In this document: piece after piece, positions 1-7,748 of the stretch | How positions within the stretch are numbered: the first letter of the stretch is position 1 | How the letters are laid out: each line of letters starts with the position of its first letter | Source of the DNA: Gemmatimonadota bacterium | GTDB taxonomy: Bacteria > Gemmatimonadota > Gemmatimonadetes > Gemmatimonadales > Gemmatimonadaceae | Length of the DNA: 32,989 bases | Reading direction: 5' to 3' | Assembly (NCBI GenBank): GCA_027622655.1 | Contig: JAQBYI010000038.1 | Coordinates: forward strand, 1 to 32,989 | Notes under the pieces: model-generated | Told to the model about the DNA's origin: nothing | Database searches by the model: none | The model's input: the letters and a program-made list of their open reading frames with translations, nothing else | Program-made: the position numbers and the translations under genes

Positions 1-149
1 TGGCGGGATTCACGCTCTAGTATCGAGACACCACCTGATGTTTTTCAACTAGATCTGGGACTTACCCGCGGGGTCAAGCGAAATGTTTGCCGTAGTGTTT
101 GCCGGTCGGTGCGTGCCAATGGCGCTAAATGTGGTCGGTGAACGCCAAA

Positions 150-183
150 GCCGCACTATGAAAACGCCTCTTCATAGTGCGGC
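150..183. terminator. Perfect 13-bp hairpin beside truncated tRNA-Ser
   Basis: Positions 150-162 (GCCGCACTATGAA) pair without mismatch to 171-183 across an 8-nt loop. Read on the minus strand the hairpin lies 5 nt after the tRNA-Ser(GCU) fragment and is followed only by a short TTT, so it could terminate the tRNA transcript. It could equally be part of a recombination site. The structure is certain; the role is inferred. Confidence 0.5.
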
Positions 184-188
184 CCGGT

Positions 189-231
189 CGGTTTAGCAAA
201 CCGCCGCCTTCAGCCTCTCGGCCACGTCTCC
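189..231 (-). pseudogene. Truncated tRNA-Ser(GCU), 5' half only
   Basis: Read on the minus strand from 231, the sequence has a Ser-type acceptor strand (GGAGACG), a class II D-arm (GCC...GGC) and an anticodon arm with loop TTGCTAA; anticodon GCU is at 195-197. The match stops at about nucleotide 42: the expected variable arm, T-arm and the acceptor complement CGTCTCC are absent down to position 1. In their place are a short linker, a perfect hairpin and repeats. tRNA-Ser(GCU) is normally the sole reader of AGC/AGU, so either another intact copy exists or the 3' half lies outside the window. An integration junction or a decayed duplicate are the likeliest explanations. Confidence 0.75.
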
Positions 232-286
232 TGACAATCGTGTTCGGGCTGCAAAATCTAGATGTTGGCGCAACAACGAACAACCA

Positions 287-372
287 CGGAGGGCACAGGA
301 CTCGAACCTGTAAGCGGCTTTCACCGCGGCGGTTTTCAAGACCGCTGCCTTACCAATTAGGACTAGCCCTCC
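287..372 (-). tRNA. tRNA-Ser(UGA)
   Basis: An 86-nt class II tRNA on the minus strand. The acceptor arm GGAGGGC/GCCCTCC pairs fully with discriminator G. The D-stem is GTC/GGC with one G-U pair, the anticodon stem GCGGT/ACCGC holds loop CTTGAAA (anticodon UGA, 336-338), the variable arm is GCGG/CCGC, and the T-arm is ACAGG-TTCGAGT-CCTGT. No CCA is encoded. Anticodon UGA and the 3-bp D-stem fit serine; a tRNA-Sec would need anticodon UCA and a longer D-stem. Confidence 0.93.
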
Positions 373-470
373 AGCTACAGTCGGGAATCTCGCGGACCGT
401 GGCCGTCGGCACAACTTCGCGTTGGAACGCCGCCGGACGATAGCGTGTTTCGTTGGCGTCCCGTACGTTT

Positions 471-6383: not shown

Positions 6384-7748
6384 TCATACGGCGAGCACCT
6401 TCACCGAACTGGCGACGAGCAGTTCGTCGTGCAGCGGCGGAACGGTGCGGATGTCGAGCACGAGATGCGACTCTACGATGCGGCCGACGACCGGAACCGC
6501 GGCTCCATGCAGCCGGGCGTTGGCATCCGGCGCAGAGATCCCGTCGAGCCGGACTGCGGCCGAGGGAATACGTGCGCCCGGGAACGCACCGCCTCCGACT
6601 GTCGCGTCGCTTTCGACGACGGTGCATGCGGTTCCGCCGTCACGCATCGCAAGGGCAATTGCTTCGGCGCGCGTGCGAACCGAGTCGACCGAATCGGTCA
6701 GCATGCGGAGCACGGGAATTTCACGGACGGCTACGTCCGCATCGCGGTACAGCTCCAGCGTCGCCTCGAGCGCGGCGAGCGTCATCTTGTCGACGCGCAA
6801 AGCCCGGGCGAGCGGGTTGGCGCGCATCGCACCGACGCTCTCGGCACTTCCGAGCACGATTCCCGCCTGGGGGCCGCCGAGCAGCTTGTCTCCACTCATC
6901 AGCACCAACGTAGCCCCGTCGCGGACGGCGTGGCGCGCCGTCGGTTCGCCGCGGAGCCCCCACGGTGAAAGGTCGGCCATCAGACCGCTGCCAAAGTCGT
7001 GCACCAGTGCCACACCGGCCTCTGCCGCGAGCTTCGCCAGTTCAGCGGGCGATACGGACGCGACGAATCCCTCAAGCACGAAGTTGCTGCGGTGCACCGA
7101 AACGATTGCGGCCGTATTTGGGCCGACGGCTGTGCGATAGTCCGCAGCGTGCGTGCGATTAGTCGTTCCGACTTCCACAAGAGACGCGCCGCTGCGGGCC
7201 ATGATGTCGGGCACGCGCAAACTGCCGCCGATCTCGACGAGTTCGCCACGCGAGATGACGGCTTCACGGCCGTCGGCGATAGTATTGAGCGTCAGGACCA
7301 GCGCGGCGGCGCAGTTATTCACGATCATCGCGTCAGCGGCGCCTGTGAGTTCGCACAGAAGTCGAGCGCAATGCTGATGACGCGAGCCGCGCGCTCCGCG
7401 CACCACATCGTATTCGAGGTTCGAGTAGCCGGCTGCGACGTCGCGTACGGCTGCGAGCGCCTGAGCCGCGAGCGGGGCGCGCCCGAGGTTCGTGTGGAGC
7501 ACCACTCCGGTGGCATTGATCACGGGGCGCAGCGAGCGCACGAGTGCGCGTTCAACCTCTGCGGCAATCGCGGCAACCCATGCCTCGTCTGAATCGGGCG
7601 TATCTGTCGACTCGCGCCGCGCGGCCTCGACGGCACGGCGCACCGAGTCCGCCACCAGGTCGCGTGGCGCGCGCGCTGTGAGTTCGCGAACGCCGCTCAA
7701 CTCGAGCAGTGTTCCGATCGCCGGCAGGCGGCGACGGACATCTGTCAT
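6384..7748 (-). CDS. selA: L-seryl-tRNA(Sec) selenium transferase
   Basis: PLP enzyme that converts Ser-tRNA(Sec) to Sec-tRNA(Sec) using selenophosphate, for selenocysteine insertion at UGA. The 454 aa match full-length SelA: an N-terminal helical tRNA-binding domain, then INATGVVLHTNLGRAPL (77-93), NNCAAAL (144-150), EIGGSLRVPDIM, HDFGSG and the PLP-lysine motif SGDKLLGGPQAG with Lys288. The start codon shares a base with the upstream lipoprotein stop (TGATG), and the stop overlaps a possible gmhB-like start, indicating translational coupling. selB, selD and selC are not in the window, and the nearby tRNA-Ser(UGA) is not tRNA-Sec. The catalytic Lys and surrounding motifs make a decayed copy unlikely. 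Confidence 0.95.
   Translation of the reverse strand: MTDVRRRLPAIGTLLELSGVRELTARAPRDLVADSVRRAVEAARRESTDTPDSDEAWVAAIAAEVERALVRSLRPVINATGVVLHTNLGRAPLAAQALAAVRDVAAGYSNLEYDVVRGARGSRHQHCARLLCELTGAADAMIVNNCAAALVLTLNTIADGREAVISRGELVEIGGSLRVPDIMARSGASLVEVGTTNRTHAADYRTAVGPNTAAIVSVHRSNFVLEGFVASVSPAELAKLAAEAGVALVHDFGSGLMADLSPWGLRGEPTARHAVRDGATLVLMSGDKLLGGPQAGIVLGSAESVGAMRANPLARALRVDKMTLAALEATLELYRDADVAVREIPVLRMLTDSVDSVRTRAEAIALAMRDGGTACTVVESDATVGGGAFPGARIPSAAVRLDGISAPDANARLHGAAVPVVGRIVESHLVLDIRTVPPLHDELLVASSVKVLAV

Follow-up and report, generated by a model that had tools for sequence, protein, structure and literature searches.

RESULTS

Half a tRNA-Ser(GCU) gene lies at a contig end

The window, i.e., the whole stretch of 32,989 nucleotides analyzed, is the entire contig C53 of a 3.14-Mb, 115-contig Gemmatimonadota genome (G000), and its position 1 is therefore an assembly end. 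The following features were identified at this end.

1-67, unstranded: end of an IS256-type insertion sequence (IS), the remainder lying off the contig to the left; repeated at 13 contig ends
68-188, minus strand: putative left end of an integrated element (attL arm), between the IS and the tRNA half; missing from empty congener sites
74-103, minus strand: paired direct repeat GGCAAACACTACGGCAAACATTTCGCTTGA, putative integrase arm sites; one of two genomic occurrences
150-183, minus strand: hairpin with a perfect 13-bp stem, 6 bases past the tRNA half; folding z = -5.2
189-231, minus strand: nucleotides 1-43 of tRNA-Ser(GCU), interpreted as the displaced native 5′ half by identity to C15:892-934; with base 232 it makes up the 44-bp attL core
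232-285, minus strand: native upstream region of tRNA-Ser(GCU), between both Ser tRNAs as in empty congener sites
286-373, minus strand: tRNA-Ser(UGA) (ARAGORN, Rfam), the native left neighbor of the insertion site; next to an uninterrupted tRNA-Ser(GCU) and gltX in G001, G004, and others

The original prediction, made from the sequence alone, had correctly recognized the 5′ part of a tRNA-Ser(GCU) but had placed the last matching position at nucleotide 42. Nucleotides 1 to 43 of the tRNA correspond to window 231-189 on the minus strand, homology ends after nucleotide 43, and divergence begins at nucleotide 44. The break falls on the 3′ side of the anticodon stem, i.e., in the anticodon arm, and no T-arm follows it, as had been predicted on both counts: ARAGORN and Rfam called no tRNA at the half gene and no T-arm after it in window 1-231. 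The nearest tRNA gene is tRNA-Ser(UGA), and the only others in the window are two with anticodon CAU near 30.4-30.6 kb (ARAGORN, Rfam). Window 232-285 presumably holds the original tRNA-Ser(GCU) promoter, which would now drive the half gene only.

The first bases of the window belong to a repeated sequence. An identical stretch of 66-74 bases occurs at 13 contig ends of the genome (window 1-67 and 12 others, L009-L020), with the same end outward at all of them and different DNA after ...GGGACTTACCC each time. A diverged copy in G140 runs into an ORF that matches the NF033543 IS256 transposase (E = 2e-11, a partial match under the curated cut-off); an exact 19-mer of the IS end had no match in the genome-contig collection searched. 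The IS accounts for the contig break. As the IS edge lies 121 bp from the tRNA break, insertion of the IS was rejected as the cause of that break.

The complete gene follows an integrase remnant on another contig

An intact copy had been expected elsewhere in the genome, and a complete tRNA-Ser(GCU) gene is present at C15:892-982. Its first 43 nucleotides are identical to the window half, and the BLAST block between the two spans 44 bp, including one flanking base, at 100% identity (E = 5e-16). A search for further tRNA-Ser(GCU) genes gave this one only. The 5′ half thus has two copies, in the window and in the complete gene; the free 3′ half whose search had been suggested does not exist, the single 3′ half of the genome being part of the C15 gene. 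Other Ser tRNA genes have the anticodons UGA (a single gene, that of the window), GGA, and CGA.

The order on C15 is the IS end found in the window, an integrase frame, tRNA-Ser(GCU), and gltX downstream. The frame (C15:69-869) is the C-terminal part of a tyrosine integrase (PF00589, E = 3.8e-13) and ends just upstream of the tRNA. The proposal that the locus is an integration site of a tyrosine integrase thus gained support from the search for a flanking integrase. The C15 frame carries one in-frame TGA and has lost its N-terminal part at the contig break, and hence it is not the uninterrupted gene of a functional mobile element. Elsewhere in the genome, on contig C113 (L139:1243-2607), an uninterrupted integrase of the same family precedes a tRNA with anticodon CAU by 55 bp; a displaced 5′ half for it was looked for in G000 and not found.

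C53 and C15 are separate in the assembly, and the interior of the element is unassembled between two IS ends. Since C53 and C15 both carry the same IS end facing outward, a rearrangement may have followed integration. No target duplication of at least 5 bp is common to any pair of flanks among the 13 IS contig ends, and a single IS copy bridging C53 and C15, whose flanks have no matching target duplication, is not supported. Two inverted IS copies, or an IS with long identical ends, possibly lie between them.

Related genomes have empty and occupied versions of the site

In G004 and G001, which belong to the same genus, and in several other genomes, tRNA-Ser(UGA), tRNA-Ser(GCU), and gltX lie side by side, uninterrupted. 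The window and C15 are therefore very probably the two flanks of one insertion, so that the right flanks of the two contigs would once have been adjacent. Judging from the empty congener sites, the window fragment probably lies upstream of the C15 gene and is co-oriented with it.

The same site is occupied in other relatives. The window aligns with G003:C7 over most of its length (16 pieces, 24.7 kb), and the two Ser tRNAs of G003 lie about 18.6 kb apart (L075-L076, G003:C7:10600-29300). In this insertion, a decayed 5′ half lies beside tRNA-Ser(UGA) and a complete tRNA-Ser(GCU) beside gltX; an integrase remnant immediately precedes the complete gene. Another remnant junction, inside the insertion at 15.68 kb, has repeat arms and part of the window hairpin; the G003 insertion is a decayed tandem. 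At the same site, G008 carries 8.2 kb of inserted DNA, and C15-related DNA lies upstream of its tRNA.

Displaced 5′ halves recur at other tRNA genes

Integrases were searched for in 298 related genomes. Among 25 integrase loci with an adjacent tRNA, 18 lie just upstream of the tRNA 5′ end and are co-oriented with it, and 7 lie on the 3′ side. The tRNAs at the 5′-side loci are Ser(GCU), Ser(UGA), Arg, Lys, Leu, Met, Phe, Cys, and SeC, and in intact relatives the complete integrase ORF ends 4-112 bp before the tRNA. Seven other genomes yielded displaced 5′ halves, counting the decayed one of G003. The remaining six halves are identical to the complete gene (E = 1e-20 to 4e-17) and were seen directly to lie upstream of it in the same orientation.

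G043: tRNA-Lys nucleotides 2-41, element of about 2.9 kb
G182: tRNA-Lys nucleotides 1-42, element of 3.8 kb
G114: tRNA-Leu nucleotides 1-40, element of 2.4 kb
G135: tRNA-Met nucleotides 1-37, element of about 1 kb
G240: tRNA-Cys nucleotides 1-37, half preceded by an integrase fragment
G132: tRNA-Ser(UGA) nucleotides 1-43, element of about 2 kb

G182 is a Gemmatimonadaceae bin (JACCRF010000013.1), of the same family as the window's genome, which makes a Gemmatimonadaceae host very probable for the window too. The integrase fragment before the G240 half makes that locus probably a tandem. No displaced half was found in the stretches fetched for G082, G196, G182:C52, and some others, some of which are on short contigs. 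As a control, a pattern for the Ser(GCU) 5′ half was run on 149 relatives; it matched 66 genomes, with two matches only in G000 and G001, and the second match in G001 is on another contig, beside its own gltX-like match.

Displaced 3′ halves downstream of a complete gene were observed as well, for Met in G135 (L152:5440-5481 and 6775-6855) and for Phe in G121 (L150:8308-8352). As G135 has a displaced 5′ half upstream too, a single tRNA seems to have taken elements on both sides there.

The junctions share a core and paired repeats, and a hairpin usually follows the displaced half

The core common to the two junctions is nucleotides 1-43 of the tRNA. The genome contains exactly two copies of the repeat GGCAAACA-N(2-4)-CGGCAAACATTTCGCTTGA, at C53:74-103 on the minus strand and at C15:822-850 on the plus strand. 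Each junction has one copy next to it, and relative to the tRNA both copies point the same way. In related elements, including that of G132, paired repeats also flank both junctions, with a sequence that differs per element. They resemble arm-type integrase sites, a putative assignment.

Upstream of restored tRNA genes, a TAAGTT box is frequent at about -21 to -25, and some Ser tRNAs of the family that appear to be native have it too. Of 122 regions upstream of tRNAs, 14 have TA[AG]GTT at -35 to -18, where shuffles would give 0.6. A sigma-70 scan upstream of the C15 tRNA yielded no canonical promoter, so we infer, and do not read directly, that the box is a host-type tRNA promoter carried by the element; it would drive the restored tRNA.

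The hairpin just past the window half was matched in stability by none of 100 shuffles and in strength by none of 60 local controls. It is possibly a terminator, with a weak T tail, and would then end transcription from the orphaned native promoter. A hairpin is usual just past the displaced half. Compared with shuffles, folding is strong in the window, G182, G114, and G135, moderate in G043, and no better than shuffles in the region after the G240 half; in G132 a perfect stem is followed by TTCTTTTTT. The hairpin might instead serve the attachment site as a protein-binding or RNA element, a real possibility, though we hold it the less probable reading. It would fit the weak T tail of the window hairpin, which a stricter terminator scan did not flag, and a hairpin-plus-T test in which G043, G182, and G240 did not rise above their local controls. 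The other four of the seven elements in that test (the window, G114, G135, and G132) beat all 60 local controls, and the hairpins of the last three start at the end of the half and have a T-rich tail; moreover, the hairpin sequence varies between elements. These observations argue for a terminator.

The element appears to have replaced the 5′ half of the gene

Very probably, the window half is the attL of an old, decayed tyrosine-integrase element that entered the sole tRNA-Ser(GCU) gene and replaced its 5′ half. This explanation draws on the sequences of the shared core, the unique 3′ half, the empty sites, the integrase remnant, the paired repeats, and the recurrence in relatives. Crossover would have taken place in the anticodon arm of that gene, the sole tRNA-Ser(GCU), with strand exchange probably within the anticodon loop, and the element would have brought its own copy of nucleotides 1-43. 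Integration would have left the native 5′ half behind in the window (attL) and joined the element's 5′ half, with element DNA upstream, to the native 3′ half on C15, which would yield the complete gene (attR). The predicted attP has, in order, the integrase 3′ end with arm repeats, the promoter-like box, the tRNA 5′ half, the hairpin, and arm repeats. The view that the tRNA had been left unrestored did not hold: the C15 gene is complete, its 5′ half apparently supplied by the element. Since the tRNA is rebuilt on C15, the oddity of the locus is which half was replaced, not a failure of restoration.

A tRNA pseudogene, arisen by local duplication or by an IS-driven rearrangement and involving no integrase, might be suspected in a decayed region where IS ends flank both contigs. 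We consider this very unlikely, given the distance between the IS edge and the tRNA break and the presence of identical halves, an integrase, and paired repeats at different tRNAs in genomes without this IS at the junction. Less likely still is an artefact of assembly or binning, with the half coming from a second strain or a contaminant. The genome is a bin of 115 contigs with an estimated contamination of 4.2%, and the window ends in a multi-copy IS; yet synteny with a congener extends over most of the window, the genome has a single Ser(GCU) gene and a single Ser(UGA) gene, the paired repeats tie C53 to C15, and in G003 the same insertion site is in use. A split or intron-containing tRNA, its halves made apart and then joined, which the lone 5′ half with its native upstream region might suggest and which had already been thought unlikely, was rejected as next to inconceivable, because the unique 3′ half sits within a complete gene that has a full 5′ half.

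Apparent repeated adoption of the 5′ mode

In a quick integrase tree with some long branches, where the label was mostly taken from integrase position and orientation rather than from a recovered displaced half, the 5′ label clusters (a value as low was reached in 1 of 500 shuffles) and needs at least four changes on well-supported branches, which suggests more than one adoption of the 5′ mode. The 3′-side relatives (L115, L117, L124, L167, L168, L170, L172, and L182) mostly face tRNA-Leu (UAA or CAA), and they come from Gemmatimonadota, Acidobacteria, Nitrospira, and a viral contig. In a more distant integrase group, L128 (G241) and L131 (G122), from two genomes of the order, lie 110 bp upstream of tRNA-Ser(GCU) and are co-oriented with it.

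DISCUSSION

Islands that leave a 5′ fragment are known but uncommon, since the Islander collection holds 159 of them, against 3,760 with a 3′ fragment, among 3,919 islands (PMC4383910). In that 5′ kind, for which Islander sets a length of 2-200 kb, a complete tRNA gene has a displaced, co-oriented 5′ fragment upstream, with the integrase between the two (PMC4383910). G000 likewise has a complete tRNA (C15:892-982) and a cognate fragment (C53:189-231) in one genome, and the integrase frame (C15:69-869) is upstream of the tRNA, on the element side, between fragment and gene. Unlike in those islands, the fragment and the complete gene lie on different contigs here, and the element has decayed.

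Recombinant bacterial tRNA genes are described as keeping their original promoter, with very few exceptions (PMC8371274), and integrases of the pTN3 type as unique in archaea in using the tRNA 5′ half (PMC8371274, PMC5495485). As in pTN3, attB is a tRNA 5′ half (41 bp are shared in pTN3, nucleotides 1-43 here), and the restored tRNA is cut off from its original promoter (PMC5495485, PMC8371274). The likeness between the archaeal and the bacterial element is one of descriptions; the integrase hits here are to PF00589 and phrog_1. Furthermore, pTN3 integration disrupts the integrase gene, whereas the uninterrupted integrase ORFs of the relatives studied here end 24-112 bp before the tRNA, so that attP is not within the integrase gene. 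ICEKp1, a conventional 3′-restoring element, also has a tyrosine integrase, a tRNA attB, and a restored tRNA, but it retains the host tRNA promoter, from which its integrase gene is driven (PMC13023037); here the tRNA loses its own promoter region to element DNA, and the integrase points to the tRNA 5′ end. The phages of tRNA-dependent lysogeny similarly break an essential host tRNA gene upon integration, but there the broken gene stays broken and a phage tRNA takes its place (PMC10865867), whereas here the gene is rebuilt at attR.

Neither the Gemmatimonadota set nor the layout of promoter, 5′ half, and hairpin was found described in the open-access literature searched. Both the recurrence in Gemmatimonadota and this layout look new within the known 5′-restoring minority class. 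A broader proposal, to which we give a little less than even weight, is that Gemmatimonadota have recurrent small tRNA-integrating elements whose attP would be a cassette of promoter, tRNA 5′ half, and terminator. Such elements would swap the promoter of an essential tRNA and silence the orphaned native one, and the 5′ mode would have arisen several times from 3′-side relatives, perhaps by reversal of the symmetric anticodon core.

The usual description of elements in tRNA genes is that the host promoter stays and the 3′ end of the gene is replaced; a set in one bacterial phylum appears to do the opposite at several tRNAs. Element DNA would thereby govern the expression of an essential tRNA, and the host may become bound to the element as a result. 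A solitary 5′ half of a tRNA gene is readily written off as a broken gene or an assembly error, yet it can be the sign of an island boundary.
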